Assembly (NCBI GenBank): GCA_014360805.1
Contig: JACIWU010000013.1
Coordinates: 1 to 54,937 of the forward strand
Source: Chloroflexota bacterium
GTDB taxonomy: Bacteria > Chloroflexota > Anaerolineae > DTLA01
Direction: 5' to 3'
Length of the DNA: 54,937 nucleotides
The first letter of the stretch is position 1, and the number at the start of each line of letters is the position of its first letter. Of this stretch, positions 7,401 to 53,512 are shown in pieces. The notes under the pieces were generated by a model, which ran no database searches, was not told the DNA's origin, and was given only the letters and a program-made list of their open reading frames with translations. A program made the translations under genes and the position numbers.

Positions 7401-7603
7401 GTCTCCCCGTTCAGCACCCCAACGGGCTGAGGCATGCCCGCGCCCCCCGCCGCGTCCGAGGAATCCAGCGCCGCGCTCCACATCAGAGCAAGCAGCGCCA
7501 CCGTGCCCACCACAAGCACCAATACCAGCGCTTTCCCGTTACCTTTTCGCGATGCAGATTCACCATGTGTGCCCATGTTCACCCCTAGGTTGACCGTGAT
7601 CAT
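4475..7603 (-). CDS. Secreted alpha/beta-hydrolase esterase flanked by two DNRLRE-type domains, with Pro/Thr linker and tail
   Basis: The protein has about 1,042 residues. A membrane segment near residues 25-42 acts as signal or anchor. A DNRLRE-like beta domain (about 75-265) ends in a short PT linker (about 270-288). An accessory beta domain (about 300-405) follows, then a PHB-depolymerase/esterase-like hydrolase (about 410-660) with Ser515 in GVSMGG, Asp599 in HGLQDT and His631 in GGHDTPWP. A second DNRLRE-like domain (about 795-960) is followed by a long Pro/Thr repeat tail ending in [15 protein letters not shown]. It is probably an envelope enzyme removing acyl or ester groups. An ATG at 7576, preceded by AGGGGTGA, is a plausible alternative start, because GGAGGT lies too close to the ATG at 7603. 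Confidence 0.88.
4537..4725 (-). repeat. Pro/Thr-encoding low-complexity tandem repeat in the esterase tail
   Basis: The DNA is a degenerate short repeat of GGCGTC-like units encoding PTPTPT/TAT. A 28-bp stretch at 4574-4601 is repeated exactly at 4634-4661, a 60-bp period. It is coding, and such tracts are prone to length change by slippage. Confidence 0.85.
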
Positions 7604-33970: not shown

Positions 33971-36277
33971 TCACTGTCGGGCGCCCTCGGAGGGCAACGT
34001 GGTGAAGTCCAGCGACAGGTCGCGCCCGCCTTCCAGGCGCTTGGGCAGGACGAACTTGAACACGCTGCCCTGCGGTTCCGCGCCCTCCACCCAGATGCGC
34101 CCGCGGTGATGCTCCACGATGTGCTTGCAGATGCTGAGGCCCAGGCCGGTGCCGCGATAGGGGCGAGTCGCGCCGCTGTCCACCTGGTAGAACCGCTCAA
34201 AGACCTTCTCGCGCTCGGCTGGCGGGATGCCGATGCCCGTATCGGCCACCGAGATGAGCACGCGGTCGCCCAAATCCTCGCCGTGGATAACGATGCGGCC
34301 GCCCGCCGGCGTGAACTTGATGGCGTTGTCCACCAGGTTGGTGAGCACCTGCTCCATGCGAGTCGCGTCGGCCTCCACCGTGGCGAAATCGGCGGGAATC
34401 GTGGACTCCAGCGCGATCTGCGCCTCCTGCGCCTGCGGCGCCAGTTTCTCGGCGACGCGCGCCGCGATGTCGGCGAACGAAATCTCCTCTATGCGCAGCC
34501 GAATCTGCCCCGATTCCAGCCGCGAGAACTCCAGGAGTTCGCTGATGAGATTCTGCAACTGGTCGGTCTGCTCGCGAACCGTAGCCAGAAAGTCGCGCTG
34601 GAGGTCGTTGATCTTGCCCGTCTTGCCCATCAGGATGATGTCCACAAACCCCTTGATGGAGTGGAGCGGCGTCTTCAATTCGTGCGAGACGACGGACAGG
34701 AAATTGGACTTCATCTGCTCCAGTTGCTTCTGGCTGGTGATGTCGCGCAGCACGGTAACGACGCCGCGCGCCTCGCCGGCAGCGCCCGGGACGGTCGTCG
34801 CAAGGGCCTGGTAGATCATCTCCGGGTGCTCGCGGGTCATCGGCACCCGAATCTCGCGGATGACAGGCTTCCCCGGGGCCGCCAGCGCCTCGCGCATCAC
34901 GCCCATCAGTTCGCGGTGGCCCACCGTGTCGGCCAGCGGCTTGCCCAGCGAGGGGGCGTCCTCCACGCCGAAGATGCGCACCGCCACGGGGTTCATCATC
35001 ACCAGGTTCAGGTCGGTGTCGGTAACCAGGACGCCGTCGCCAATACCCTGGAGCACCGCCTCCAACTCGTTGCTCTTCTCCTGCACGCTCCGGTAAATCT
35101 GCTCCGTCTGGCGCTTCTCGCGGGCCAGGTCTTCGTAGAGCCGCGCCTTCTTGACCGCGATGGCCGCCTGGTCGGCAAAGGCCGCCAGAAGGTTCAGGTC
35201 ATCCGGCCCGAATGCGTTGGCCTCGGGGCTGGTGGCGCTGATGGCCCCGATGGCCTTCCCGTCGGACATGAGCGGAACGCTGATGATGGACTGCACGGGC
35301 ATCTGGCCCAGGCGGATGTAGCGGGCATCCTGGCTCACGTCGCCGATGAGCGCCGGCGCCGCGTTGGCCACGACCCAGCCGGCGACGCCCTTGCCCACGG
35401 GGAAGCGAGACCCCCACAGGCTCTGCGCGGGCACGCCCGACGCCGCCAGGGTTACCACCTCGCCCGTCGCCTCGTCCAGCAGCGCGATGGAGCAGCGAGT
35501 GCCCCGCAGCACCTGCGAGGCGTTGGCGACAATCATCCCCAGCAGCGACTCCAGGGCCACCGCCGAGTTGATCGTCTTGATCCCCTCTTGCAGGGAGCGC
35601 AACTGCATGACCCGGTCGCCCAAGTCCGTCGCCGTCCGCTGCAACACCGACGTCTTGCGGCGGAGTTCCTGCCCCTGCTCCTCCAGGGCGTAGTTGAGCC
35701 CGCGCACGAGGCGATACCGGCGCTCCAAGAGCCATGCCACGTACAGCGCCGCCAGCACCATCGCGAACAGGATGAGATACCGCAGCACGAACCCGGGCGA
35801 CAGCAGGAACAAGAGCGATTGAATCTGCAGGTACACGCCGAGGATGTACAGCGGCCCGTAGAGGAACGGCAGGAAGATGAGCCAGTGCGCGAACGGGTAG
35901 CACAGGGCCACTTTCACCGCAAGCACGAAGTAGAGCAGGTAGAGTTCGCTCCCCACGCCGCCGGAGTACGGAATCAGGAACAGGATGGCCAGCGAGTCCA
36001 CGATGGTGGCCGCCGGCACGAGCCAGACGGGAATCCTGTCGCGCCAGGTGCCGTACACCAGCACCGAGATGAGGAACGCGAAGGCCATGAACACCGCCAG
36101 GCCGAGCGCCGCCGCCCGCGGGAACGGCACCTGCTGCGTCGTCCACACGCTGATGGCGCCCACCAGGAACATGCCCCAGCGCAACGGCGCGCCGAACCGC
36201 CGTTCCAGGCGCAACAACCCATCCTTGCGGTAGTGGAGCGTCGGCGGTGGGATGTAGATCGTCGTGGATGCGCTCAT
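33971..36277 (-). CDS. Membrane sensor histidine kinase with GAF and PAS domains
   Basis: The 768-residue protein has about six hydrophobic segments in residues 34-185. A coiled coil (about 190-235) leads to a GAF domain (237-380), a PAS domain (about 400-520) and HisKA with phospho-acceptor His532 in SVVSHELKTPLH. The HATPase domain (to about 745) has NLVDNAIKFTP, DTGIGIPP and GTGLGLSI. It is a full-length two-component kinase that autophosphorylates and then phosphorylates a response regulator. The OmpR/PhoB-type regulator at 45988-46668 is the likely partner, although four other genes separate them. The ATG at 36277 follows GAGGGGGG. What the sensor detects is unknown. Confidence 0.92.
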   Translation of the reverse strand: MSASTTIYIPPPTLHYRKDGLLRLERRFGAPLRWGMFLVGAISVWTTQQVPFPRAAALGLAVFMAFAFLISVLVYGTWRDRIPVWLVPAATIVDSLAILFLIPYSGGVGSELYLLYFVLAVKVALCYPFAHWLIFLPFLYGPLYILGVYLQIQSLLFLLSPGFVLRYLILFAMVLAALYVAWLLERRYRLVRGLNYALEEQGQELRRKTSVLQRTATDLGDRVMQLRSLQEGIKTINSAVALESLLGMIVANASQVLRGTRCSIALLDEATGEVVTLAASGVPAQSLWGSRFPVGKGVAGWVVANAAPALIGDVSQDARYIRLGQMPVQSIISVPLMSDGKAIGAISATSPEANAFGPDDLNLLAAFADQAAIAVKKARLYEDLAREKRQTEQIYRSVQEKSNELEAVLQGIGDGVLVTDTDLNLVMMNPVAVRIFGVEDAPSLGKPLADTVGHRELMGVMREALAAPGKPVIREIRVPMTREHPEMIYQALATTVPGAAGEARGVVTVLRDITSQKQLEQMKSNFLSVVSHELKTPLHSIKGFVDIILMGKTGKINDLQRDFLATVREQTDQLQNLISELLEFSRLESGQIRLRIEEISFADIAARVAEKLAPQAQEAQIALESTIPADFATVEADATRMEQVLTNLVDNAIKFTPAGGRIVIHGEDLGDRVLISVADTGIGIPPAEREKVFERFYQVDSGATRPYRGTGLGLSICKHIVEHHRGRIWVEGAEPQGSVFKFVLPKRLEGGRDLSLDFTTLPSEGARQ

Positions 36278-36308
36278 GGCGAAGCCCCCCTCATCCTCGG
36301 TCGCGCCG

Positions 36309-37688
36309 TCATCGCGGCGGCAAGGTCGGCGTCGCCGTCGGCGCCGGCGTTGGGGTGGGCGACGGCCCCGGCGCGGTGGGCGTGAACGTGGGCGCGGGGC
36401 GGGTCGGCTCCTGAACGACCGCCGTCGGCGAGGGACTCGGAGAGAACGTGGCCGTGGGCGACAGCGCAACCGTCGCCGTCCGTGCCGGCGTGGCGGTCGG
36501 CGCCAGCGTCGCCGTAGCCGTCGGGCTGGGCAGGCGCGTGCGGGTCGGCGTCGGCGTTCCCGTGGGCGAGCGCGTGGGCGTCGGCGACTCGGTAGGGGGC
36601 AGCGGCGTGGGCGTGTACGGCGGCGGCACGGTTATCCCAGCGCCGCTCCTCACCCATGCCAGCGACCGCGCCCACACGCCGTTGTCGGTGCCCGCCAGAA
36701 GCGTCTCGTTGTCCAGCGGATCCAGCGCCAGGCTGTTCACCCCAAGCCTCCCCATGCCCTCGCGGAAGGGCTGCCATGTCCTGGCGTAGTTGTTGCTCCA
36801 GTACACGCCGTCGGGGTTTGTACCCAGGAACACCGTGCCGCGCACGGCGGGATCCACCAGCAGCGCGACGGCAAACCCCGACCCCAAACCGGCCGCGCGG
36901 CGCGTCCATGTCCCCCCGCCGTCGGTAGTCGCATACACGCTGGCCCCGGCGGCCATGTACGCCATGTTGGGTTCCACCGGATCAATGGCGATGGAGTTCA
37001 CCACCCGCTCCAGCGACAGGCGCAGCGACAGGGCCCACGTCTGGCCCCGATCCCGCGAGATGTACACTTCGCCCCGCGACGTGCCCAGCCAGAGTTCGCC
37101 CGGGCTGCGCGGGTGCACCACCAGCACCGAAGGCGCGCTGGCGGCGGCAGGGCCTCCCAGCCGCTGCCAGGTCAGCCCGCCATCGGCGCTGCGATAGATA
37201 TCCGTACCGGTGGCCGCGTACAGGATGTTCGGGTCCGACTCCAACGCCACCGCCCGAACCACATCCTTCCCGAAGTCCACGCGCAGCAAGGCCCACGACG
37301 CGGGATACGTCTGGGCGTAGAAGCCCACCGAATCCGCCCGCTCTCCCAGGGCCAGGTACAGCCGTATCTGCTCCCCATCCTGGGCTGCCAGGCGCACGCG
37401 CGGAACCTGGCCCCACGCGCCTGTGGGCAGGCCGCCGTTGAGCGCGCGCCAGCGTCCGTCCGTCAGATGCCACACGCCAAGCCCCGACGTGGTGCAGAGG
37501 TATCGGGTTTCCCCGTCGCTCCTCAAGGCATAGACGGCATCCACCTTGCTGCCCTCCATGCCCAGGGGCCGCCAGGCGTTCGCCAGAGAATCCCGCGGAA
37601 CGGCGAACACCAGCAGCAGAGGCGCGAAGAAGACCAGGCTAGCCGCTAGCGCCTGAATCACTCGGGCCCTGGTTATCGGGACTTGCAT
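36309..37688 (-). CDS. Secreted BNR/Asp-box beta-propeller protein with Pro/Thr tail
   Basis: The protein is about 459 residues long. An N-terminal hydrophobic segment (about 8-30) acts as signal or anchor. A propeller of repeated blades has Asp-box motifs SADGGLTW, SRDRGQTW and TTDGGGTW, with a related YARTWQPF, like VPS10/Ycf48-type BNR proteins. The last about 110 residues are PTPTPT/TATP repeats ending TLPPR. It is probably an envelope-exposed binding protein. The ATG at 37688, 6 nt after AGGGG, is preferred over the ATG two codons upstream, which abuts that site. Confidence 0.82.
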   Translation of the reverse strand: MQVPITRARVIQALAASLVFFAPLLLVFAVPRDSLANAWRPLGMEGSKVDAVYALRSDGETRYLCTTSGLGVWHLTDGRWRALNGGLPTGAWGQVPRVRLAAQDGEQIRLYLALGERADSVGFYAQTYPASWALLRVDFGKDVVRAVALESDPNILYAATGTDIYRSADGGLTWQRLGGPAAASAPSVLVVHPRSPGELWLGTSRGEVYISRDRGQTWALSLRLSLERVVNSIAIDPVEPNMAYMAAGASVYATTDGGGTWTRRAAGLGSGFAVALLVDPAVRGTVFLGTNPDGVYWSNNYARTWQPFREGMGRLGVNSLALDPLDNETLLAGTDNGVWARSLAWVRSGAGITVPPPYTPTPLPPTESPTPTRSPTGTPTPTRTRLPSPTATATLAPTATPARTATVALSPTATFSPSPSPTAVVQEPTRPAPTFTPTAPGPSPTPTPAPTATPTLPPR

Positions 37689-37697
37689 GGGCATCCC

Positions 37698-39167
37698 CTA
37701 GCGCGGCGGCCTCGTGGGCGTGGGCGGCACCGGCGTCGCCGTGGGCGGCTGGGTTGGCGTCGGCGGCTTTGTGGGCGGCGGCGGAGGCGGCTGGGTCGGC
37801 GGCACCGGCGTCGCCGTGGGCGGCACCGGCGTGTTCGTGGGCGCGCGCGTCCGCGTCGGCGTGCGGGTCGGCGTAGTGGTGGGCGTCGGCGTCGCATAGT
37901 TGGTGAGGATGTCGGCGATTCGCGCTTGCGCCTCGGCGGTATCCACGCCCGCCACGGCCTGCGCCTGGCCGTACTGCGCCAGCGCCTCGGTGTAGCGGCC
38001 AGCATCTCGCAGAGCATCGCCGCGCGCGATGTAGGTCTTGTACAGCCAATAGCCCGCGTTGCGAATGGGATACTCGCCCGGCGCGCTGTAGAGTTTGTTG
38101 AAACGCGCGTGGGCCAAATCAAACTCGCCATTCCCGAAGGCCACGACGCCGGCCAGGTACGACTCGGCGTCGCTCTTGATGGCCGCCACCCGACTGTCCT
38201 GCGGGTTCAGAGTCAGCGCGCTGGACAGATGCTGGATGGCGCGCCGCAGGTCGGCCACCTGGCTCGCCTGATCGTCTATCAGGCGCTTCGCCTCGTTCAC
38301 ATACGACTCAAACAGCATTTTGCGGACCAACTGCTCATTGTAGGATGGCTCCAGACTGCGGGCGCGCTCCAGGCGGTCTATCGCTTTGCCCCATTCGCCG
38401 CTCTCGTAGTAGCCCTGTCCCTCCTTGTACAGGTCGGCGACCGTCTTGCGGCGCTCCACAAACGAGGCCAACGTGCTGGCATCGCTGTAACTGGGATCTA
38501 TCTCCAGAATCTTGTTGAGTTCGGCCCAGGCCAGGTCCCACTGTTCGTTGGCAATGTACGTCCTCGCGTTCTGGTACAGGATGCTGAGATTGGACAAACG
38601 GCGTGCCTTGTCCAGGCCAAACTGCGCGCCCTTGTGATTGGGATCGCGCTCCAGAATCTGCTCGTAGATGCGGATCGCCTCTTCGTAATCCCCGACCGTC
38701 ATCTTCGCCTGGGCGCGGTTGTATAGCACATCAATGGGATCGGGCTGCTGGGTCTTGAAGATGAGGAACGCCCCAAGGGCGACGACGACCAGCACCAGCG
38801 GCCATATCAGGACGCGCCAGTTGAAGCGGATGGGGGCGCGGCGGGCCTTCGGCGGGCGCGCGACCACCTCGCGGACTTCCGGCTCCGCAGACGGCCCGGT
38901 ACGCACCGCCTCGGTCTCTGTCGCCTGGCCTTCAGGTCCCATGGCCTGGAGTTGGATGAACCAATCCAATTCGTCCAGCAGGGCGTCAATCCCAGGCCGA
39001 TTCGGCTCAAGCGCCTTGAGGCGCACGAAGTACTCCATGGCCCTCTGCCACTCGCGGCGACGGTAATGGGCCATGCCCCGTGTGTAGAGCGCCTCTGCGT
39101 CCAGTTCCTCGTCGGGGTTCGGGTCCCCAGCAGCCTCCTGGGCCATCTTATTCAGGGGATCATCCAT
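37698..39167 (-). CDS. TPR membrane protein with Pro/Thr tail
   Basis: The 489-residue protein has a cytoplasmic TPR-like segment (about 25-75, EALYTRGMAHYRRREWQRAMEYF), a membrane helix (117-137) and several extracytoplasmic TPR repeats (about 145-430) such as YEEAIRIYEQILERDPNHKGA and ARTYIANEQWDLAWAELNKILEIDPSYSD. A tail of PTPT/PPT repeats ends it. The ATG at 39167 follows GGGAGGGG. TPRs on both membrane sides suggest a scaffold linking cytoplasmic and envelope partners. It is preceded by a 135-bp gap. Confidence 0.83.
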   Translation of the reverse strand: MDDPLNKMAQEAAGDPNPDEELDAEALYTRGMAHYRRREWQRAMEYFVRLKALEPNRPGIDALLDELDWFIQLQAMGPEGQATETEAVRTGPSAEPEVREVVARPPKARRAPIRFNWRVLIWPLVLVVVALGAFLIFKTQQPDPIDVLYNRAQAKMTVGDYEEAIRIYEQILERDPNHKGAQFGLDKARRLSNLSILYQNARTYIANEQWDLAWAELNKILEIDPSYSDASTLASFVERRKTVADLYKEGQGYYESGEWGKAIDRLERARSLEPSYNEQLVRKMLFESYVNEAKRLIDDQASQVADLRRAIQHLSSALTLNPQDSRVAAIKSDAESYLAGVVAFGNGEFDLAHARFNKLYSAPGEYPIRNAGYWLYKTYIARGDALRDAGRYTEALAQYGQAQAVAGVDTAEAQARIADILTNYATPTPTTTPTRTPTRTRAPTNTPVPPTATPVPPTQPPPPPPTKPPTPTQPPTATPVPPTPTRPPR

Positions 39168-39246
39168 AGCCCCTCCCGATGCCCAGGCGCGGTGCAACAT
39201 ACTGCAACTCGCATTCTTCTCCCCCCAAGCATTCCAAAACCTCAAA

Positions 39247-39277
39247 CGGCGGCAACTCGTTTGGCCTCGTGCCGCCG
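39247..39277 (-). terminator. Possible intrinsic terminator or attenuator after the giant repeat gene
   Basis: CGGCGGCA (39247-39254) pairs with TGCCGCCG (39270-39277), an 8-bp stem with a 15-nt loop. On the minus strand it is followed by GTTTGAGGTTTTGG, a weak T-rich stretch. It lies in the 135-bp gap between the giant gene's stop and the TPR gene. Confidence 0.35.
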
Positions 39278-39302
39278 ACACGACGCGCTTCGCCGCGGCC
39301 CC

Positions 39303-42300
39303 CTAGCGTCTCGGGCGCCCCTCCGTCAGCGGTATGGCCCAAAGCGCCTCGGGCACATCCTGCGGCCCAACGGCCGACGTGCGCCCGGCGCGCGTGCCGT
39401 CAAAGTTCAGCGGCACCAGCGGCAGGCGCACCTTTGGCGCAAGCCGCGTGCGCACCTGTACCCCATCCACCAGCGTCCACGTGTTGTACCAGCCCAGCCC
39501 CTGCTGCGGGTCGTAATCGTACTCGCGGTTCCAGTTGGCGAACTCCACGGTGATCGTCTGCCCGGCGTAGGGCGACAGGTCTATCTGCGCGTAGCGCCAG
39601 CCCAGGTCCCGCAGAATCAGCACCGACGTGATCGGCTCTGTGAAGTTGCCGTCGCGCAGGACTAACTGCGGCGAGCCGCCTTGCCGCGTGATCGTTACGT
39701 CAAACGAATCGTAGAGCATCCCATCGCTCCCCACGACCACGTCATACGTGTAGATATGATACCAGAAACTCAAGACCGGGGTCAACACCTGGTCGGCGGT
39801 GGGCACGGTGAACGTCTGCGACATGCACGCCGCCCCGACCGGCACGCTGGGCAACGTGTCCGTGCGCGTGTAGGCGGGGTCGCCCAGGCGGGCCACCCAG
39901 CCCTCAACCCCGCGATAGTCCGTGGCGCGCACCACGCTGCGGTTGAACCTGGGCGTGCAGCCCAGCGTCCAGCCGCTGAAGCTGCCGGTCTCCAGGTCAC
40001 CGTTCACCACCGGCGAGACCTGCACCAGGATTTGGGCCGACAGGGGATAGTCGCCCTGGTTGCCCGCAACATCCCGCGCGCGGGCCCTGAAGCCATAGGT
40101 GTGCCCCCGCTGTCCCACATACGGCGCCGACGTCAGGTCGGTGTTGGTGAGCCAGTCGGTCCAGGCGCCGCCAAGACCATCGACCACCTGCACATCGTAA
40201 CGCGCCAGGCCCGACCCGGGCGCAGGATCCAGCCCCACCCACGACACGGTGAAGTTCGTACCGGTCTGGAACGAACCAGGCGGGATGAACGCCACGATAG
40301 GCGCCGTGCGGTCAATGCGGAACGACACCGTAATCACACCCGACTCGTTGCCGGCCACATCCGCAGCCTTGTAGGCCACTGTGTGATCGCCGTCCGTGCT
40401 CACAACGACGGAATTGCCCGTCTGCCACGAGCCTCCGTTCACTCGGTACCGGGTGGCGGCCAGGCCCGATAGCGTGTCGGTGGCCGCGAATGTTACCGTA
40501 ACCGGCGACACGTACCAGTTCTCGGAGCCTAGCGTGCCCGCCAGGGTGTGCGTAACGGTAGGCGGCAGCGCGTCGCGGCGGATCGCCCGCGGCAGCCAGG
40601 CGTAGTTCTGATAGCCCACGTTCCCGGCCACGTCTTCCAGCCAGACGTACAGGTCATGCTCGCCGTTGGCCGTAACGTTGATGGAGGCGCTGGGGACCAC
40701 AACGGCCACGCGCGTCCCGTCCGTCGGCCCGGATGGCGGGGCGTTGAGTTTGTAGTACATCGCCGCGATGCCGGAATCATCGGCGGGCAGCGGGTTCTTC
40801 CAGGTTACCGTGAAGGTGCTGCCCCTGGACCACCCCGAAGGCGTTACGCGCACATCGGTTGGGGCGGCGGGCGGCCGATTGTCCATGCGGACGGTGAGGG
40901 AGCGCACGACTTCCACATTGCCTGCCGCGTCCAGCCCGCGGTACTCCACGACGTGCTTGCCGGGCGTGCTGATCGCCGCCATCGCCGTGGCGACGCCCGT
41001 CTCGGTAACCCACGCCGACGCATCTACCCGATAGGCCACGCCGGAAACGCCGGACAGCCCCGGCTGATCCTGCGACACGAAAGTAACGGTAACCGGCGAA
41101 GTGAACCAGGCGTTGTTGCCCAGCGTGCCGTTCAGCGAGGCATTCGTGATGGGCGGCAGCGGGTCGTACAGGAACGCATTGATGCGGGCGGCACGGTTCA
41201 CAAAACTGGTGTTCCCCGCCATGTCGCGCAGCCAGACGGTGATGCTGTGCCTGCCCTCGCCAGACACGGTGATGTCGTCAATGCGGGTGCCGCCGGGGAC
41301 ATACGTGCCGTCGGTGTTGAACGTCGGCTCGGCGTCCAGTTTATAGTAGGCGCCTGCAATCCCCGACGTGTCCGCCGGCGGGGTCCACGAGATGCTGAAG
41401 TGGTTCACGTTGGTCCACGTCGTGGGCGAAGGCGTCAAATCCATCGGCATTCCGGGCGCTGTGGTGTCAATGCGCACCGGGCTTGCCTGCGGTTCGCCCC
41501 GATTCCCCGCCTCGTCCACGCCGTAATGCTCCAGGACGTGGTCGCCATCGGCGGAGATGCCCACGGTGTTGCCTTTGACCCACGGGCCACCGTCCAGCCG
41601 GTAGTACACCTCGCCCTCGGCCGGGCCGGATGTCGTATCCGTAACGGAGATTGTAACGCCGACCGACGAGCGATACCACCCGTTGTCGCCGACCGCGCCG
41701 CTGATCTGGATGCTGCTGGTGGGCGGAATCGTGTCCACGCGCACCGTGCCCGACATGACCTCGCTCTCGTTGCCCGCGCGGTCAATGGCGTAGTAGTAGA
41801 ACGTGCGCGTCCCTTCGCCGCCCACGACGAACGTCTTGCCCGACAGCCACGGGCCGATCGTCCCCATGCGATAGCGATACCCGTCTTCCCCCACGCCCGA
41901 TGTGGCGTCGGTGCCGTCCAGAATCACGGTAACCGGCGACGTGTACCACCCCGTCGCGCTCAACGTGCCCGACAGGGTGTGCGTAACCGACGGCGCGGCC
42001 GTGTCTATGCCCACGCTGTACGCATGGGTGGCCTCTACGTTGCCGGCGTTGTCGGTGGAATAGTACTCAAACGTGTGGACGCCATCGCCCGACATCACGA
42101 ACGAAGCCGTGGTGGTGAGCCATGCGCCCGCGTCCACCTGGTAGAAGCGCTGATCCACGCCGGACAGCCCCGGCTGATCCACCGCGGTCAGGGTGGCTGT
42201 TACCGCGCCACGGAACCAGCCATTGTCGCCGGCTGGCCCCGAAAGGGCATGGGTCGTCTGGGGCGGCGTGGCGTCGTACTTGAACATGCCCGGCCACACC

Positions 42301-45300
42301 AGGCGGCGGTTGTGGTTCACGTTGCCCGCGTTGTCCTGAAGCCACAGGTGGATATCCCAAACCCCCTCGGCCGGCACGCTGATGTCCGTGATGGTGTTGG
42401 TGGTGCTGACGAAGCGCACAGCGTCGGTGGGCGAGGTCGGCGGCGTGAACTTGTAGTACGCGCCGGCAATGCCCGACAGGTCGGGCGCGTTCGTCCAGGT
42501 TACGGTGAACACGTTGGTATTCTTCCAGCCGTCGTAGTACTGCGGCTCGGTGGGCGCGAAGGGCGCGGTATTGTCCACGATGAACGTAGATGGCGTCGGC
42601 GGATCTTGCGCGTTGCCGGCCTTATCCGTCGGGCGCATCTGCACGGTGTAGATGGCTTCCACCGGCGGCGCAAAGGTGTAGGCCCAGGTCTCGGCGCCGG
42701 TGGCGCGCAACCACACCGGACTCCCCACCCACACGCTGCCGGAGAAGTACTTGCTGTCCGAACTGCGCTGCAGGGTGAAGTCCACGAAATCCACGCCTAC
42801 GCCCGCATCGGCAGCCGTTCCGGCGATGGCGCCGGGCCATGTGGCCGTGCGGTAGGCCGCCGACGTCTCCAGGGTAGCCGTCGGCGGCGTGCTGTCGTAG
42901 ATGAACTGGCCGGTCCCGTAGGTCAACTCCGGATTGCCCGAGACGCTCCACGCGCGAGATTGCACCGTGTAGGTAACCGACTCCGTCGGACTGAAGGGGT
43001 AACTCCAGTTCAGGGTCCCCGTCGCCGTGAGCCACTGGGAGGTCAACTGCCAACCGCTGCCGTTGTAGTACTTGTCGTCCGTGCTGCGCTGTACGGTGAT
43101 CTCCACGCGGGCGACGCCCGAAACCCCCGCCGAGGCCGTGCCGGTGATGGCACCCGTCCACGTGGTGGCGCGGTAGAAGCCCACCGTGCCCACGATGGAG
43201 TCGGGCTCCTGCACGTCCAGCGCGAACGAGGCGCTGCCGTAGGTGGTCTCGGTGTTGCCGGCCTTGTCCACGGCGCGCGAGGTTACGGTGTACACCCGGT
43301 CCGACTCGGGACTGAACGGGTAGGTCCAGGTCGTCGTGCCGGTCGCGGTGATCCACGTCTGCGCAACCTGCCAGACGGCGCCGTTCCAGTACCTTCCATC
43401 ACCCGAACGCTGCACCGTGATGGCCGCGGCCAGCACGCCCGAAGTGGCATCGGTAGCCGTGCCGGTGATGGCGCCTGTCCACGTCAGGGCGTTGTAGTAG
43501 CCGCTGGTGGCCACCTGCGAATCGGGCGGCTGGAGGTCGTAGCAGAACGAACTGCTCGCATAGACGGATTGGATGTTCCCTGCCACGTCCAGCGCCCGCG
43601 AACGCACCGTGTACGTCAAGCCATCCGTTGGCGTGAAGGCGTACTGCCAGGCATCCGTGCCCGTGGCCAGAAGCCAAAACTCCGTCGCCTGCCAGCCGGA
43701 CCCGTTATAGTAGTAGTTATCGGGTCTCTGCACCGTCAGTTCCACCCGCTGGAGGCCCGAGCCTTCGTCCGAGGCCGTGCCGGTAATCTGCCCCGTCCAC
43801 GTATCCAGGCGGTAGAAGCCGGAGGTCGCGATGGCCGAGACGGGGATGGCCGCGTCGTAGGAGAAGGTGGATTGCGACGGCGTCGTCTGCTCGTTGCCCG
43901 CGCGGTCGGTGGCCTTGGCACGCACCGTGTACGTCTCGCCGTGCTGGGGCGAGAACGGGTACGACCAGTTGGCCGTGCCTGTGGCGGGCAGCCAGATCTC
44001 AATCGGCTGCCACGTTGTCCCGTTCCAGAACGTGTTGTCCGACTTCTTGATGGACAGCGCCACCGACTGTAGCCCCGACTCGGCATCCGCCGCGGTGCCG
44101 GTGATGGCCCCCGACCACGTCAGCGGCCCGTAGTAGCCGGATACACCCACCGTGGACGTGGGGTCGGTGCCGTCGTAGGAGAATGACGCTGAGCCGTAAG
44201 TGGTCTGCTCGTTGCCCGCGCGGTCGGTGGCCCTGGACTGCACCGTGTACGTGATGCCCTGCGTCGGGGTGAACGGGTAGGTCCAGGCGTTGGTGCCCGA
44301 GGCCAGCAGCCACGTGGGTGAGGACGCCCACCCGCTGCCGTCATAGTACTGGCCGTCGGGGCGGCGCACGGTAATGTGCACCACATCCACGCCCACGAAG
44401 TCATCCGACGCCAGGCCGGCGATGGTGCCGGTCCACGCCGTCTTGCCCAGCAGCCCGCTGGTGGTTACCGAGGACGTGGGGACGCCGCTGTCGTAGACGA
44501 GCGTGCCCGTGCCGTAGGCAGTTTGCTGGTTGCCGGCGGCATCCTGGGCGCGGGACTGGATGGTGTAGGTCTTGCCGTGCTCCGGCGCGAACGGATAGTG
44601 CCAGGCCGTCGTGCCGCTGGCGAGCAGCCACACCGGAGTGGCTTGCCACCACGAGCCGTTGTAGTACTGATTGGTGTCGCCGCGCTGGATGGTGATGTCC
44701 ACCCGTGCAACGCCCGATTCGGCGTCCTCGGCGGTTCCGGTGATGTTGCCCGTCCACGTGAGAGTCCCATAGTAGCCGCTGGTGCCCACGGCCGAGGTGG
44801 GCAGCCCGATGTCCAGCATGAACGTGGCCGCCGCCGACAGAGGGGATTGCACGTTGCCCACGTTATCGGTGGCGCGCGAACGCACTTCGTAGGTCATCCC
44901 CGGCTCGGGCGTGAAGGCGTAGGACCACGATTCTGTGCCGCTGGCGAGCAGCCACACGGCCGAGCCGACCCACCCGCTGCCGTCGTAGTACAGGCCGTCG
45001 TTCACGCGCCTCAGCGTGATCTCCACCTTCTGCACGCCGGAACCCACGTCGCTGGCCGTGCCCGTGATGAAGCCCGTCCACGTGGCGGCGCGGTAGAAGC
45101 CCGACGTCCCGACGGCCGAGGTGGGAGCGGTGTTGTCAAAGTGGATGGTGCCCGAGCCGAGCGCGGTCTGCACCAGGCCGGCCACATCCGTGGCGCGCGA
45201 GGACACGTTGTAGGTTACGGTCTCGGTGGGCGCGAAAGAATAGGACCAACTCGTCGTGCCGGTGGCCAGGAGCCACAAGGGACTCCCCTGCCAGCCGACG

Positions 45301-45944
45301 CCGTTGTAGTACTGATTGTTGTCGCCGCGCTGGATGAGGATGTCCACCCGCGCAACGCCCGACGTGGCATCCGACGCCGTGCCCGTGATGACCGAGAGGG
45401 TCTTGAACCAGCCGTCGGTCGTTACCGAAGAGGCGGGCGCTGTGGAGTCCACCTGGAGCGGATAGGCCGGGCTGGTCTCCGTCATCGCGGCCCCGTCCAG
45501 GATACGAAACATGATGAGGTTGTCGGTGGCCGAGTCGGGCAGGAACAGGTTGGTAACGGTCATCCGCTTGGTGGTCGTCAGGTCGCCGGCGATGGAAAGG
45601 CCCGTCTGCCCCCACGAGAACCAGGACCCGCCGCCATCGGTGGAGTACGAGTATTGCGCCGTGGTATCCTGTAGCCCGTCCGCGTCGGTAACGGAGACGC
45701 TGGCCGAGACCAGGCTCTGGGTGATCCAGCCCGTGGGCGCGAACTCGTCCCACGTGGCCGCCTCGGCCGCCTGGGGCGGTACTGGGGGCGCGGCGGGGGT
45801 GTCCAGGAAGCCCGCATGGGGAGTAACGCCCGCGCGAGCCGCCTGGCCGCCAATGAAGAAGACCCCCAGCAGCAAGAGGCCCGCGACGCCAAACGCAACA
45901 GCAAGGCGAATGCCCTGTTGCCTTCGGGTTTCAGTGTTTTTCAT
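39303..45944 (-). CDS. Giant secreted repeat protein (2,213 residues) with OmpL47-type and Ig-like repeats
   Basis: A signal peptide (about 1-38, cleavage near ARA-G) precedes an N-terminal beta region. Nine tandem repeats of about 106 residues follow, each with GxYRxxTWTGxITGTAxD, xGVxRVxITxQR, YYNGSGW, WLLASGT and SYPFxP. Then come about five OmpL47-type repeats (VTHTLSGT, GWYTSPVTV, VDEAGN) alternating with four FN3-like segments (SGIAGAYYKL). A jelly-roll-like C-terminal domain contains YAQIDLSPYAGQTITVEF and ends RLPLVPLNF plus a 37-residue tail. The ATG at 45944 has a weak GGAG upstream. A surface adhesin or glycan-interacting envelope protein is plausible; the function is unknown. Confidence 0.85.
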   Translation of the reverse strand: MKNTETRRQQGIRLAVAFGVAGLLLLGVFFIGGQAARAGVTPHAGFLDTPAAPPVPPQAAEAATWDEFAPTGWITQSLVSASVSVTDADGLQDTTAQYSYSTDGGGSWFSWGQTGLSIAGDLTTTKRMTVTNLFLPDSATDNLIMFRILDGAAMTETSPAYPLQVDSTAPASSVTTDGWFKTLSVITGTASDATSGVARVDILIQRGDNNQYYNGVGWQGSPLWLLATGTTSWSYSFAPTETVTYNVSSRATDVAGLVQTALGSGTIHFDNTAPTSAVGTSGFYRAATWTGFITGTASDVGSGVQKVEITLRRVNDGLYYDGSGWVGSAVWLLASGTESWSYAFTPEPGMTYEVRSRATDNVGNVQSPLSAAATFMLDIGLPTSAVGTSGYYGTLTWTGNITGTAEDAESGVARVDITIQRGDTNQYYNGSWWQATPVWLLASGTTAWHYPFAPEHGKTYTIQSRAQDAAGNQQTAYGTGTLVYDSGVPTSSVTTSGLLGKTAWTGTIAGLASDDFVGVDVVHITVRRPDGQYYDGSGWASSPTWLLASGTNAWTYPFTPTQGITYTVQSRATDRAGNEQTTYGSASFSYDGTDPTSTVGVSGYYGPLTWSGAITGTAADAESGLQSVALSIKKSDNTFWNGTTWQPIEIWLPATGTANWSYPFSPQHGETYTVRAKATDRAGNEQTTPSQSTFSYDAAIPVSAIATSGFYRLDTWTGQITGTASDEGSGLQRVELTVQRPDNYYYNGSGWQATEFWLLATGTDAWQYAFTPTDGLTYTVRSRALDVAGNIQSVYASSSFCYDLQPPDSQVATSGYYNALTWTGAITGTATDATSGVLAAAITVQRSGDGRYWNGAVWQVAQTWITATGTTTWTYPFSPESDRVYTVTSRAVDKAGNTETTYGSASFALDVQEPDSIVGTVGFYRATTWTGAITGTASAGVSGVARVEITVQRSTDDKYYNGSGWQLTSQWLTATGTLNWSYPFSPTESVTYTVQSRAWSVSGNPELTYGTGQFIYDSTPPTATLETSAAYRTATWPGAIAGTAADAGVGVDFVDFTLQRSSDSKYFSGSVWVGSPVWLRATGAETWAYTFAPPVEAIYTVQMRPTDKAGNAQDPPTPSTFIVDNTAPFAPTEPQYYDGWKNTNVFTVTWTNAPDLSGIAGAYYKFTPPTSPTDAVRFVSTTNTITDISVPAEGVWDIHLWLQDNAGNVNHNRRLVWPGMFKYDATPPQTTHALSGPAGDNGWFRGAVTATLTAVDQPGLSGVDQRFYQVDAGAWLTTTASFVMSGDGVHTFEYYSTDNAGNVEATHAYSVGIDTAAPSVTHTLSGTLSATGWYTSPVTVILDGTDATSGVGEDGYRYRMGTIGPWLSGKTFVVGGEGTRTFYYYAIDRAGNESEVMSGTVRVDTIPPTSSIQISGAVGDNGWYRSSVGVTISVTDTTSGPAEGEVYYRLDGGPWVKGNTVGISADGDHVLEHYGVDEAGNRGEPQASPVRIDTTAPGMPMDLTPSPTTWTNVNHFSISWTPPADTSGIAGAYYKLDAEPTFNTDGTYVPGGTRIDDITVSGEGRHSITVWLRDMAGNTSFVNRAARINAFLYDPLPPITNASLNGTLGNNAWFTSPVTVTFVSQDQPGLSGVSGVAYRVDASAWVTETGVATAMAAISTPGKHVVEYRGLDAAGNVEVVRSLTVRMDNRPPAAPTDVRVTPSGWSRGSTFTVTWKNPLPADDSGIAAMYYKLNAPPSGPTDGTRVAVVVPSASINVTANGEHDLYVWLEDVAGNVGYQNYAWLPRAIRRDALPPTVTHTLAGTLGSENWYVSPVTVTFAATDTLSGLAATRYRVNGGSWQTGNSVVVSTDGDHTVAYKAADVAGNESGVITVSFRIDRTAPIVAFIPPGSFQTGTNFTVSWVGLDPAPGSGLARYDVQVVDGLGGAWTDWLTNTDLTSAPYVGQRGHTYGFRARARDVAGNQGDYPLSAQILVQVSPVVNGDLETGSFSGWTLGCTPRFNRSVVRATDYRGVEGWVARLGDPAYTRTDTLPSVPVGAACMSQTFTVPTADQVLTPVLSFWYHIYTYDVVVGSDGMLYDSFDVTITRQGGSPQLVLRDGNFTEPITSVLILRDLGWRYAQIDLSPYAGQTITVEFANWNREYDYDPQQGLGWYNTWTLVDGVQVRTRLAPKVRLPLVPLNFDGTRAGRTSAVGPQDVPEALWAIPLTEGRPRR
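42565..45430 (-). repeat. Nine tandem about 318-bp coding repeats
   Basis: The nine repeats of the giant protein are visible as DNA repeats of about 318 bp carrying recurring sequences such as GTGCCGGTGATG and TTGTAGTA. They are divergent enough to be distinguished, so the array is old. Recombination between repeats could change repeat number. Confidence 0.8.
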
Positions 45945-45987
45945 AAGACTACCGCTCCGCAATGCGAATACCGGGGCAGCCCCGGCG

Positions 45988-46668
45988 CTACGCCTCAAAC
46001 CGATAGCCCAACCCCCGCACGGTGAGCAGATACTCCGGATGGGCCGGGTCTGCCTCTATTTTGTTGCGCAGCCGCCTCACGTACACGGCCACCTGGTTGC
46101 TGTACCCTTCGTAGTCGTACCCCCACACGGCCGTCAGCAGGAAGTCCTGCGACAGGACTCGTCCGGCGTTGCGGGCCAGGCAGTACAGCAGCCGAAACTC
46201 AATGGGCGTGAGGTCCACGGTCTTGCCGCGCACCGTCGCCTTGTTTTCCAGCGGATCCAGAACGAAGTCGCCGACCACGAGCCGCCCCTGCGGTTCGCCC
46301 GTGGCGTAGGCTTCGGTGCGCCGCAGGACGGCCTTCACCCGCGCCAGCAACTCGGCCGGCTCAAAGGGCTTGGCCAGATAGTCGTCCGCGCCCAGTTCCA
46401 GACCCTGCACGCGGTCCGCCGTCTCGCCCCGCGCCGACAGGAAGATGATGGGCACTTTCTTCTTGCTGCGGATGCGGCGGCAAACCTCGTGCCCGTCCAT
46501 GTGCGGCATCATCACATCCAGAATCACCAGGTCCGGCGACTCCTTTTCTACCAGTTCCAGGGCCTTGATGCCGTTGTCGGCCGTGCTTACCGTGTACCCT
46601 TCCTCCCGTAGAAGGAAGGCGATCATCTTCACGCTGGGGGCATCGTCATCTACCACGAGAACGTGCAT
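45988..46668 (-). CDS. OmpR/PhoB-family response regulator
   Basis: The 226-residue protein has an N-terminal receiver domain with acidic residues VVDDD near 5-9, phospho-acceptor Asp51 in VILDVMMP, Ser/Thr in LSARGETADR and Lys100 in DYLAKPFEP. A winged-helix DNA-binding domain follows with LTPIEFRLLYCLARNAGRV and VYVRRLRNKIEADP. Family members bind direct repeats near promoters after phosphorylation. It is separated by 43 bp from the giant gene downstream. The histidine kinase at 33971-36277 is a likely partner, and the repeats at 33887-33930 a likely target. Confidence 0.93.
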   Translation of the reverse strand: MHVLVVDDDAPSVKMIAFLLREEGYTVSTADNGIKALELVEKESPDLVILDVMMPHMDGHEVCRRIRSKKKVPIIFLSARGETADRVQGLELGADDYLAKPFEPAELLARVKAVLRRTEAYATGEPQGRLVVGDFVLDPLENKATVRGKTVDLTPIEFRLLYCLARNAGRVLSQDFLLTAVWGYDYEGYSNQVAVYVRRLRNKIEADPAHPEYLLTVRGLGYRFEA

Positions 46669-50499: not shown

Positions 50500-51540
50500 A
50501 TGAGAGTCTTCCTCACCGGCGCGCTGGGGTTCATCGGCAGGCACGTAGTCGTCCGCCTGATGCAGGACGGGCACGAACTGGTGTGCCTGGCGCGCAAGAC
50601 CAGCGACCCCGCCTGGCTTCGCGAGGTGGGCGCCACCGTCATCATCGGCGACGTGCTGGACAAGGACTCCGTCCTGGCCGGCATGAGGGGGTGCGACTGG
50701 GCCGTCCACCTGGCGAATCTCTACTCGTTCTGGCAGCCCGACCGCTCCCTGTACGCCGCCGTCAACATAGACGGCACCCGCAACGTCATGGAGAGCGTGC
50801 TGGAAACGGGCATCGCCAAGATCGTCCACATCAGCACGGCAGCGGTTTACGGCTGCCCCGCCGATTGCCCTTTCACCGAGGACAGTCCCGTCGGCCCCGT
50901 GCGGTTCAGCGAATATGCCCGCACCAAGTACGCCGGCGACCTTGTCGCGTGGGAACTGCACCAGAAGCGCGGCCTGCCGCTCGTCGTCATCTACCCGGGT
51001 GTGGTTCTGGGCCCGGGCGACCCCAAGTTCACCGGCCTGTACATCCGCGACTTCCTGCGGGGCCGCATCCCCGCCACCGGCTTTGACGACGCCGTGTTCA
51101 CCTACGTGCACGTGCGCGACGTGGCCGAAGGCATCGCGCGGGCGCTGGAGAAGCCCGACAACATCGGGGAGAAGTACCTCCTGGGCAAGGAGCAACTGTC
51201 CAACCGACAGTACAGCGCCCTCATCAGCGAACTGTCGGGTGCGCCCATGCCCCGACTGCACCTGCCGGGGTTCGCCATCATGACCATCGCGGGCGTGCTG
51301 ACGTGGATTGCGGATCGGGTGAAGCGGCCACCTGTGTGGGGCATGTCCCGCGACCGCGGCTGGGTGATCTCGGTGGACGCCATGCGCACCACGCGCGAGG
51401 GGTTCCGATTTGACGGGAGCAAGGCCGAGCGGGAACTCGGCCTGACCTACACGCCCATACGCCTGGCGCTGCAAGAGGCTATTGCGGCGTGCCGCCAAGG
51501 GCTTGAAGCCCCTGTTGCGCCGCCGCGTCCCACGGGTTGA
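50500..51540 (+). CDS. NAD-dependent SDR epimerase/dehydratase
   Basis: The 346-residue extended SDR has GALGFIGRHVVV at residues 7-18, DVLDKDSVLAGMRGCDWAVHLA, VNIDGTRNVMESVL and the YxxxK pair in SEYARTKYAGD. YPGVVLGPGDPKF follows. It is related to HpnA/dihydroflavonol-type reductases. ATG at 50500 follows AAGGAG. Its last 62 bp overlap the 3' end of the minus-strand DUF2723/TPR gene. Co-transcription with the MFS gene is likely (21-bp gap). The substrate is not evident. Confidence 0.85.
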   Translation: MRVFLTGALGFIGRHVVVRLMQDGHELVCLARKTSDPAWLREVGATVIIGDVLDKDSVLAGMRGCDWAVHLANLYSFWQPDRSLYAAVNIDGTRNVMESVLETGIAKIVHISTAAVYGCPADCPFTEDSPVGPVRFSEYARTKYAGDLVAWELHQKRGLPLVVIYPGVVLGPGDPKFTGLYIRDFLRGRIPATGFDDAVFTYVHVRDVAEGIARALEKPDNIGEKYLLGKEQLSNRQYSALISELSGAPMPRLHLPGFAIMTIAGVLTWIADRVKRPPVWGMSRDRGWVISVDAMRTTREGFRFDGSKAERELGLTYTPIRLALQEAIAACRQGLEAPVAPPRPTG

Positions 51541-53512
51541 TGGCCAGCGCGCGCAGGTAGGCGGCGCGGGCATCGGCGGCGCGGCCCATCTGCGCGTACA
51601 GGTCCCCCGCCAGGCGGTGCGGCAGCGCATACTCGGGATCCAGCGCGGCGGCCTCGCCCCATGTCCCCAGCGCCTCGTCGGGGCGGCCGTGGCGGGCCAG
51701 GTACACGCCACGGTACGCCCGCACCGCCGCGTAGGTGCGGCGAATCTTCTTGACCACGGCATCCACGGGAATCGTGCCGTCGTTCAGCCCACGGCCACGC
51801 ACGCTGGCCGTGTCAAAAGGCTCAAATGCGTCCTGCTCGCGCAGGGCCACCGTTACCCCCAGGGGAACCCCCACGTATCCGCTACCCACGCCCTCCTCCA
51901 TGTCCAGCCCCACGTGGGCGGGCTGCCCCTCGCGGATGAGCGCATTGATGAGGGCGATGTACCGCTCCTGAATCGTGGCGGGGTTGTAGGGCAAGCCGTA
52001 CTCAAACAGGCGCAGTTGCTCGCGGTAGGCGTCCAGTTCGGCGCGGCACCGCGACACCAGGTCGGGATATTGGCGGGCCAGGTAGTCCAGGTACCACGTG
52101 CGGCGTAGCAATTCCACGTCAACAATGCGGACGTCGGGGCGCAGCCCCTCCACGTGCTGGCCGTACAGCAGCGGCGAGTACGCCTGCCAGTCGCGGGTCA
52201 GAAACGTCGCTCCCGGCTCCAACTCGGCCAGAACCTGCGCGGCGTAGTCCTCGGGCAGGTACAGCCGATGCTTGTCGGACTGCCGCCAGTGCAGGCCCAG
52301 GTTCAGGGCAACCAGCACGGCCAGCGCCGCGTAGGCGATGGGCAGGTGCGCCGTGCGGTTGGACTTTCCACGCCCACCGCGCCCCGAAGCGCGCAGCGCG
52401 CCGCGGAACCGGGCCAGAACCGCGTGCGCACCCCAGGCGATTCCCAACGCCGTCATCAGGAACGTGGGGATGTAATAGGCGTCGCTGTCCTCGGCGATGT
52501 CGTAGTGCGCCGCGAAGGCCACATCCACGGCCACCACGAGGGCGCAGAACAGCGCCAGACGGCGGTCGCGCCGGGCCATGGCCGCAAACCCCCACGCCGC
52601 CAGCAGCAGCCCCGTCGGCGTGAACTGCCCCCACCACAGGCGCAGGCCGAAGGATAGGTTGTCCAGCATGGCCGACAGCGGCACGGCGAACAGGTTGACC
52701 TGGTACTGCCGGCCCGTGACGTGCCACGCGAACCGTTGCAGGTTGACCGGGTTGCCCCAGTTCAAGAGCGGCTGTTGCGCCGCGCGGATGGGCAGGTACA
52801 GGTAGAGCGAGAGGCCGAGCAACAGCCCCAGCATCGCGGGAATCCAGCCGCGCCCGAAAGCGCGCCTGTGCTCACGCGCGGACAGCAGCAGGAACAGCAT
52901 GGCGGGCGCGAACACCAGCGTCATCACGTGGTGGTTCGCCAGCCCCAGGCCGACGCACAACCCCGCGGCGAACCACGCTCCGCGGCCCCCGCCGCACAGC
53001 GCGGCGAAGAACGCCCACAGCATGAGGGTCAAAATCGCAGCCTGGAGCGTGTACACCTCGGCCACGGTCGCCCAGTTCCACAGCGTGATGCCAAAGGCCA
53101 GGCACAGCCCCGCGCACCCGGCGGCGAGAACGGGGGCCAGCCGCGAATGGCGCGAATCCGCGCGGACGACTTCCCGTTTCTTCGCGCCCGTTCGCTCGGG
53201 TTCGTGGAGCGGCTCCTCGTGCAGGGTGCGCCGCGCCAGCAGGAGGAACGCGCCCACCGCCACCGCAGCCCACATCGCCGACATCAGGTTCAGCCGCCAG
53301 GCGACCGCGCCGAAGGGCAGGCGGCCGAAAATCCAGCCCAGCAGGACGTACAGCGGGAATCCGGGCGAATGGGGAATGCCCAGCGTGTACGCGGCGACGA
53401 TGAGTTCGCCGCTGTCGGTGAATCCGACGCCGGGGGCCAGGGTCAGCAGATAGACCAGCAGCGCCACGCCCGCGATGGCGATCGCGAGAAGCACAACGCG
53501 GCGGGACAGCAT
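51479..53512 (-). CDS. DUF2723 (TMEM260-like) polytopic membrane protein with C-terminal TPR
   Basis: The 677-residue protein has about 11-12 membrane segments. Near the N-terminus APGVGFTDSGELIVAAYTLGIPHSPGFPLY is the DUF2723 signature, a GT-C-type acidic loop followed by HSPG(F/Y)P. A soluble C-terminal part includes YLEDYAAQVLAELE-like and TPR-like segments (PDEALGTWGEAAALDPEYALPHRLAGDLYAQMG). TMEM260 relatives are O-mannosyltransferases, so a protein or lipid glycosyltransferase activity is inferred. Its stop lies inside the plus-strand epimerase gene (overlap 51479-51540). Confidence 0.85.
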   Translation of the reverse strand: MLSRRVVLLAIAIAGVALLVYLLTLAPGVGFTDSGELIVAAYTLGIPHSPGFPLYVLLGWIFGRLPFGAVAWRLNLMSAMWAAVAVGAFLLLARRTLHEEPLHEPERTGAKKREVVRADSRHSRLAPVLAAGCAGLCLAFGITLWNWATVAEVYTLQAAILTLMLWAFFAALCGGGRGAWFAAGLCVGLGLANHHVMTLVFAPAMLFLLLSAREHRRAFGRGWIPAMLGLLLGLSLYLYLPIRAAQQPLLNWGNPVNLQRFAWHVTGRQYQVNLFAVPLSAMLDNLSFGLRLWWGQFTPTGLLLAAWGFAAMARRDRRLALFCALVVAVDVAFAAHYDIAEDSDAYYIPTFLMTALGIAWGAHAVLARFRGALRASGRGGRGKSNRTAHLPIAYAALAVLVALNLGLHWRQSDKHRLYLPEDYAAQVLAELEPGATFLTRDWQAYSPLLYGQHVEGLRPDVRIVDVELLRRTWYLDYLARQYPDLVSRCRAELDAYREQLRLFEYGLPYNPATIQERYIALINALIREGQPAHVGLDMEEGVGSGYVGVPLGVTVALREQDAFEPFDTASVRGRGLNDGTIPVDAVVKKIRRTYAAVRAYRGVYLARHGRPDEALGTWGEAAALDPEYALPHRLAGDLYAQMGRAADARAAYLRALAINPWDAAAQQGLQALGGTPQ
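51498..51513. repeat. Inverted repeat within the convergent gene overlap
   Basis: AGGGCTT (51498-51504), G, AAGCCC (51506-51511) is a near-perfect palindrome inside codons of both overlapping genes, so it codes in two proteins. A weak hairpin (GGGC/GCCC) could also act in transcription ending, but no T-run was seen. Confidence 0.5.

Follow-up and report, generated by a model that had tools for sequence, protein, structure and literature searches.

The nine tandem repeats encoded on the minus strand of the window (the whole 54,937-nucleotide stretch of a Chloroflexota contig analysed here) probably each fold as an Ig-like beta-sandwich and together act as a stiff spacer within a large, exported protein of the cell surface, hereafter the giant protein. 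We computed the predicted fold, the direct joining of the units, the conservation of three aspartates (D1, D30 and D91), the constant N and C modules on either side, the gene cassette in which the protein is encoded, and a copy number that runs from 0 to 9.

The open reading frame of the giant protein (45998..39303, minus strand) comprises 2231 residues without the stop codon and opens at a TTG. Judging from the sequence, an ATG at 45944, 18 codons into this frame, is the likelier true start; a counterpart ATG stands at the matching place in the relatives Chloroflexi bacterium Tumba.bins.16 and Anaerolineae bacterium A05DMB-I-30. An apparent export signal was read by eye at the N-terminus, in agreement with the original prediction of a secreted protein. 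The nine units follow head to tail and span residues 184-1141 (window 45449..42576, minus strand). The N module ahead of them gave nothing above the cut-off in a Pfam search. Approximately 830 residues of other Ig-like domains separate unit 9 from the C-terminal domain, for which the AlphaFold2 model was unusable (pLDDT 37). Profile searches with this domain gave weak hints of a jelly roll: a T9SS-target protein at E 0.036 and a weak InhA-like MAM match in three of 13 members (best E 0.0091). No anchor was recognised in the giant protein. A plus-strand frame at 40548-44072 (1174 residues, Arg-rich), which lies antisense to the repeats, was rejected as a gene, as it looks like a mirror-frame artefact of the GC-rich repeat.

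Table 1. Features of the giant protein and its cassette, in window positions
Feature	Position	Strand	Remarks
Response regulator, OmpR/PhoB type	45988..46668	-	first cassette gene
Giant Ig-like protein	39303..45944	-	from the ATG at 45944; Arg is the final residue before the stop
Signal peptide-like N-terminus of the giant protein	45831..45944	-	positive residues, hydrophobic core, ARA/G; by eye
N module	45450..45830	-	conserved in orthologues
Unit 1	45138..45449	-	without the TWTG stretch
Unit 2	44814..45137	-	
Unit 3	44493..44813	-	first half of the AlphaFold2 model
Unit 4	44175..44492	-	second half of the AlphaFold2 model
Unit 5	43857..44174	-	above the Pfam Big_3_2 cut-off alone, 27.7 bits
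Unit 6	43539..43856	-	
Unit 7	43218..43538	-	above the Pfam Big_3_2 cut-off alone, 23.8 bits
Unit 8	42897..43217	-	without the loop aspartates D30 and D91
Unit 9	42576..42896	-	
C region with additional Ig-like domains, Big_13 / OmpL47 type	40077..42575	-	
C-terminal domain, possibly an InhA-like MAM jelly roll (weak)	39444..40007	-	from profile searches
LP motif, variable tail and terminal Arg	39306..39431	-	
TPR protein	37698..39281	-	single membrane span by eye; Pro/Thr tail with terminal Arg
BNR/sortilin-type beta-propeller protein	36309..37694	-	signal peptide by eye; Pro/Thr tail with terminal Arg
Histidine kinase	33971..36469	-	GAF and PAS domains; true start probably an ATG near 36280

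The repeat is regular at the protein level. Unit length is 104-108 residues, and the mean protein identity between unit pairs is 49.7% (41.1-60.6). Shuffled partners gave 8.1%, with a maximum of 14.6, which rules out a chance similarity. The prediction of nine regular tandem repeats was thus borne out. Its placement of the array at 42565-45430 was right in substance, the exact ends (42576 and 45449) lying 11 and 19 bases away. The motifs it quoted are present in the unit consensus, which holds TWTGxITGTASD, YYNGSGW, WLLATGT and YPFxP (TWTG is missing from unit 1). The units begin with DSTAP, DNTAP, DIGLP, DSGVP, DGTDP, DAAIP, DLQPP, DVQEP and DSTPP. At the DNA level they are 53-68% identical, and Tandem Repeats Finder did not report the array. 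A unit profile run against the whole genome matched nine places at E <= 0.001, every one of them in the array.

The fold had been called unassignable, but an AlphaFold2 model of units 3-4, built on 24 unit pairs from three species, consisted of strands only, arranged as a two-sheet Ig-like beta-sandwich (mean pLDDT 96.7, pTM 0.83). The whole giant protein scored far above the cut-offs of Pfam Big_13 (PF19077; 88.8 versus 27 bits), Pfam Big_3_2 (PF12245; 79.8 versus 23.3 bits) and the NCBIfam OmpL47-type family (NF047446; 338 versus 40 bits). Taken singly, two of the nine units exceeded the Big_3_2 cut-off, four were listed below it and three were unlisted; none exceeded that of Big_13 (best 19.1 versus 27 bits) or NF047446 (best 28.2 versus 40 bits). 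The C region alone reached 62.2 bits with Big_13. A confident match of every unit to a known Ig or FN3 family had been named as the result that would overturn the original prediction; a match above the cut-off was obtained for the protein as a whole and, unit by unit, for two of nine with Big_3_2. Since only these two pass on their own, the repeat represents a divergent Ig subfamily, and both the sequence and the predicted structure mark the unit as a divergent bacterial Ig-like domain distinguished by a Trp-rich hairpin. A sulfite-oxidase dimerisation domain was also considered and rejected, the similarity being one of weak sequence resemblance only (E 0.24-0.33; NCBIfam SorT at E 0.032 for unit 6).

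The hairpin has aromatic residues, turns at N-G or D-G and continues with further Trp. Of 86 units collected across related genomes, all have W56 and W71, and 83 have W62. This conservation speaks for a different explanation, possible but rather doubtful, in which the units themselves bind ligands, for example glycans through their aromatic hairpin (YYNGSGW ... W), so that copy number would adjust avidity and not length. The available portion of one study lends it a precedent, with conserved Trp and a zipper-like multivalent lectin binding proposed for the adhesin SiiE (PMC6272769). Invariant Trp may, however, be merely structural.

Structural comparison with VIA-align brought out the BIg domains of SiiE (2yn3_A; Z 9.6, rmsd 2.8 Å over 170 residues, 22% identity), which had the highest identity and the lowest rmsd among the 50 rows listed. 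The remaining listed rows showed 6-16% identity and rmsd of at least 4.2 Å, with Z up to 9.8 (a titin FN3 pair); fragments of the grappling-hook protein GhpA scored Z 8.4-9.3 against units 3-4. The Z score alone does not part SiiE from the FN3 pairs or the GhpA fragments, which lie within 1 Z unit. In Foldseek's own ranking SiiE was not among the 50 rows listed, and pair-level TM-scores were low (0.24-0.50). A single-unit profile found 2yn3 as its best solved match (E 0.0092 for the whole chain, with no single significant stretch); SiiE was absent from the two-unit profile search at E up to 1, and a plain sequence search with the array found no solved structure at E up to 1. On present evidence from model and profile, SiiE is the nearest solved relative of the unit, though its lead is not large.

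Giant surface proteins with stalks of tandem Ig domains are already well documented. The array resembles SiiE, the giant adhesin of Salmonella, in its Ig-like sandwich, in the direct joining of its domains and in aspartates compatible with a type I calcium site. SiiE also has type II sites, marked by the aspartate pair D16 and D24. It differs in having nine units versus 53, in its Trp-rich hairpin and in units that fall below the Big_13 cut-off, whereas the SiiE BIg domains (PDB 2yn3/2yn5) are Big_13 according to the part available of PMC9704523. The routes of export may also differ, a signal peptide being read by eye in the giant protein, whereas SiiE uses a type I secretion system. Another comparison is offered by the giant bead-string proteins of Ig fold GhpA (Aureispira) and GhlA (Litorilinea aerophila), the latter also from the Chloroflexota; GhlA is described in an excerpt of PMC13319060 as a hook-filament protein of 6,596 residues with 49 DUF11 domains. 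We rejected a DUF11 grappling hook for the giant protein, as DUF11 was absent from its Pfam matches at E up to 1. Two separate giant frames with many DUF11 domains (5522 and 4152 residues) were observed on contigs C6 and C36 of the source genome (L164 and L169) and are possibly like the hook protein GhlA of Litorilinea.

The start of an Ig domain, its BC loop and its FG loop share one pole. In the array, D1 lies at the unit junction, while D30 comes after the GTAS strand and D91 ahead of the AGN turn. Of 86 units, 70 have D1, the other 16 being partial matches with a gap at this position. D30 (as D or E) and D91 occur together in 76 units and are jointly missing from eight; D91 occurs alone in two and D30 alone in none. 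The double losses comprise unit 8 in three species and single units of G010, G045, G046, G011 and G139, in which the unit match starts past position 1; since the rows are related, these eight losses are not independent events. In SiiE, type I sites lie at the domain interface, where D43 and D97 are joined by D117 from the domain before them, as given in the accessible part of PMC5466336. With SiiE numbering matched to the units by topology and spacing, the positions of D1, D30 and D91 are compatible with such an interdomain site, and by this analogy a calcium site at the junctions is probable. Because unit 8 is without D30 and D91 in all three species of the genus, the junction between units 7 and 8 may be a hinge. 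We also observed single units near the C-terminus of proteins of 1302-1424 residues (L048, L051, L052, L053 and L084) that have neither D30 nor D91 and no regulator cassette.

In the class, at least 40 of 396 genomes contained a unit at E 1e-12 or better and at least 75 of 396 the C-terminal domain at 1e-10, and across the phylum at least nine of 400 genomes contained a unit, four of them outside the class; these searches scored no more than 12 candidates per genome for units and no more than 6 for the C-terminal domain, and weak extra matches may be missed. Copy number was counted in 39 proteins with a nearly complete C module, the window included. We found zero units in 17, one in 12, two in one, four in two, five in two, seven in two and nine in three, and the proportions are no census because the loci without units were a chosen set (20 of those with a C-terminal domain). 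Four of 43 loci (G019, G054, G111 and G062), with broken or cut frames, were left out of this count and of the C-module tree.

Whatever their number (0, 1, 2, 4, 5, 7 or 9), the units lie between N and C modules that stay constant. Subtracting the unit block from the total length leaves a nearly fixed 1240-1273 residues in the nine multi-unit proteins of families f1 and f42, so in these proteins unit number sets length. Outside the two families the lengths of one-unit (1438-1777 residues) and zero-unit proteins (1229-1590 residues) overlap, and unit number alone does not set length there because other domains differ. In four zero-unit proteins (G198, G021, G078 and G033) the C match begins one residue past the end of the N match, leaving an empty site; other zero- and one-unit proteins carry different sequence at the array site.

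This architecture recalls the DDxP proteins, for which the available text of PMC7730722 describes 'growth by insertion': repeats lie between an N and a C region that do not change, and there are homologues free of repeats. The last trait was found here too, 17 of the 39 C-module proteins having zero units, with N and C modules abutting in four. The units differ, however, in beginning with D-x-x-x-P, in having no DDxP ends and in being ~106 residues long versus at least 136 in the DDxP proteins (PMC7730722, as available). That portion of the paper names only proteobacterial genera and makes no mention of Chloroflexi. DDxP-type insertion by an endonuclease was rejected, the motif being absent at the unit ends even though empty homologues exist.

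The original prediction also supposed that repeat number varies between strains. With one genome sampled per species, the number was constant within genera, at nine in all three species of the source genus, seven in both species of a second and four in both of a third, and it differed between genera; variation was thus found at a deeper level than had been proposed. The same data bear on the idea of a Periscope-type stalk, in which recombination would rapidly change the repeat number within a species. Tandem repeats of Ig type on a bacterial surface protein, a copy number that differs between relatives, and units 4 and 5 of G144, close sisters that point to a fairly recent duplication, would suit this idea. 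Periscope repeats are, however, highly identical by definition (PMC9704523, in the part available), whereas these units are 53-68% identical in DNA, are not near-identical and are stable in number wherever at least two multi-unit species of a genus were sampled. They also cluster by position, all nine in the source genus and most in two other genera. We therefore regard rapid switching of this type as very improbable, and at the species level it is unsupported by the constant number and the DNA identity.

The history of the array can be partly read from the unit trees. Each of the nine units clusters with the same-position unit of the other two species, giving nine clades (support 99-100 / 92-100); the array of nine therefore predates the genus and has not undergone homogenisation. 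Pairing by position was also seen in the seven-unit genus (six of seven places) and in the four-unit genus (three of four). In f42, 27 of 32 units form one group (96/93), and the five outside it comprise unit 1 from each of four genomes plus the last unit of G161. Units 4 and 5 of G144 (L076, f42) are sisters with support of 99/95 and would represent a fairly recent tandem duplication. In the C-module tree, the source genus is sister to the one-unit G149 (94/89), and f42 is sister to the two-unit G018 (97/92). Largely separate expansions in the two lineages seem the simplest reading of these trees. The 72-unit tree places the G149 unit outside the group of the other 62 (100/100) and not closest to the nine, so that G149 is not established as a progenitor. 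Unit 9 of the source genus falls with the f42 units (90/86), apart from units 1-8, and some duplication may therefore predate the split of the two lineages. Deep branches among units are weak, with few columns and 23 open forks. A phage or plasmid origin of the units was rejected: units 3-7 had no phage match, and there was one weak plasmid match, to a Salinibaculum surface glycoprotein (31% identity over 27% of the query).

The giant protein belongs to a five-gene cassette, running from 46668 to 33971 in the order response regulator, giant protein, TPR protein, BNR/sortilin-type protein and GAF/PAS kinase. The regulator was found upstream on the same strand in all 42 orthologous loci outside the window (63-96% identical), and in 41 of these it lies within 300 bases of the open frame of the giant protein or overlaps it; in G062, where that frame is broken, it is 2.2 kb away. 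The TPR protein came next in 40 of 42 loci, both misses being contig ends. Among the 25 loci with at least 4.5 kb of downstream sequence, a histidine kinase was present in 24, a beta-propeller in 21 and the full order in 21. The cassette was found at none of seven unit proteins of other architecture, two of which had too little downstream sequence. Such linkage could mean that the giant protein is more than a mere target of the regulators and acts as a surface probe, its engagement being reported to the kinase via the TPR and propeller proteins. The five genes on one strand in order at 21 of 25 loci, and the kinase at 24, favour this role, which we consider unlikely: the kinase has GAF and PAS domains, membrane spans by eye and no recognised extracellular domain, and gene linkage alone cannot separate a probe from a target. 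A TMEM260-like protein O-mannosyltransferase gene with TPR lies nearby (51482-53512, minus strand); as a guess, it could glycosylate the Thr/Ser-rich tails.

Three proteins of the cassette share a terminal arginine, at 39306-39308 (giant), 37701-37703 (TPR) and 36312-36314 (propeller), all on the minus strand. The giant protein ends in Arg in 37 of 40 proteins (by majority in 12 of 14 families), the TPR protein in 27 of 30 (11 of 13 families) and the propeller protein in 21 of 24 (9 of 11 families), two of the three propeller exceptions being tailless. In the controls, 2 of 39 response regulators and 5 of 18 kinases end in Arg. The background in the source genome was 40 of 254 roughly predicted genes, the three cassette proteins included, in a sample of about a tenth of one genome with rough gene calls (frames chosen by GC at codon positions); in G105 it was 3 of 57. 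Where the N-terminus is hydrophobic and membrane spans are few, 10 of 51 genes end in Arg. The tails ahead of the terminal Arg are unalike, and the giant proteins use five different codons for it (CGA 13, CGC 8, CGT 7, CGG 7, AGA 2), which makes a constraint at the protein level likelier than one at the DNA level. It is conceivable, and we offer it tentatively, that the cassette is a surface-assembly system with a C-terminal targeting code, the terminal Arg being read by a sorting or processing factor and the Ig array serving as an adjustable spacer. Elsewhere in the window (4475-7603, minus strand), a protein of 1042 residues has a Pro/Thr tail that ends in LFLPF, not Arg; this ending resembles the LP motif ahead of the tail of the giant protein.

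Taking the units as a spacer, we infer the following course. The giant protein would leave the cell by its N-terminal signal peptide and then stay at the surface, and calcium held by D1, D30 and D91 would stiffen most junctions, as in the SiiE type I site. An Ig domain is about 4 nm long, and on that assumption nine units would add roughly 35 nm. The spacer would move the neighbouring modules off the wall, for adhesion or cell-cell contact, and expression of the cassette is probably governed by the two-component pair that its first and last genes encode. A precedent for a length-setting role of the units comes from SiiE, in which the loss of more than five BIg domains abolished SiiE-dependent invasion, as reported in the accessible section of PMC6272769.

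As far as the open-licence literature goes, the 0-to-9 series in one orthologous protein, the divergent unit, the cassette and the terminal-Arg pattern are new. The titles and abstract openings listed from that literature made no mention of the giant protein or of a terminal-Arg surface signal, and nothing was found there on Ig-like, adhesin or surface proteins of Anaerolineae or Chloroflexi. Should the terminal Arg serve as a targeting signal, the Chloroflexota would have a surface-sorting code of a new kind. What appeared to be an unknown fold becomes a natural series, in which one orthologous surface protein has a variable number of Ig copies between fixed ends. This copy-number series lets the effect of spacer length be asked directly, in a class for which little work exists on envelope and attachment.
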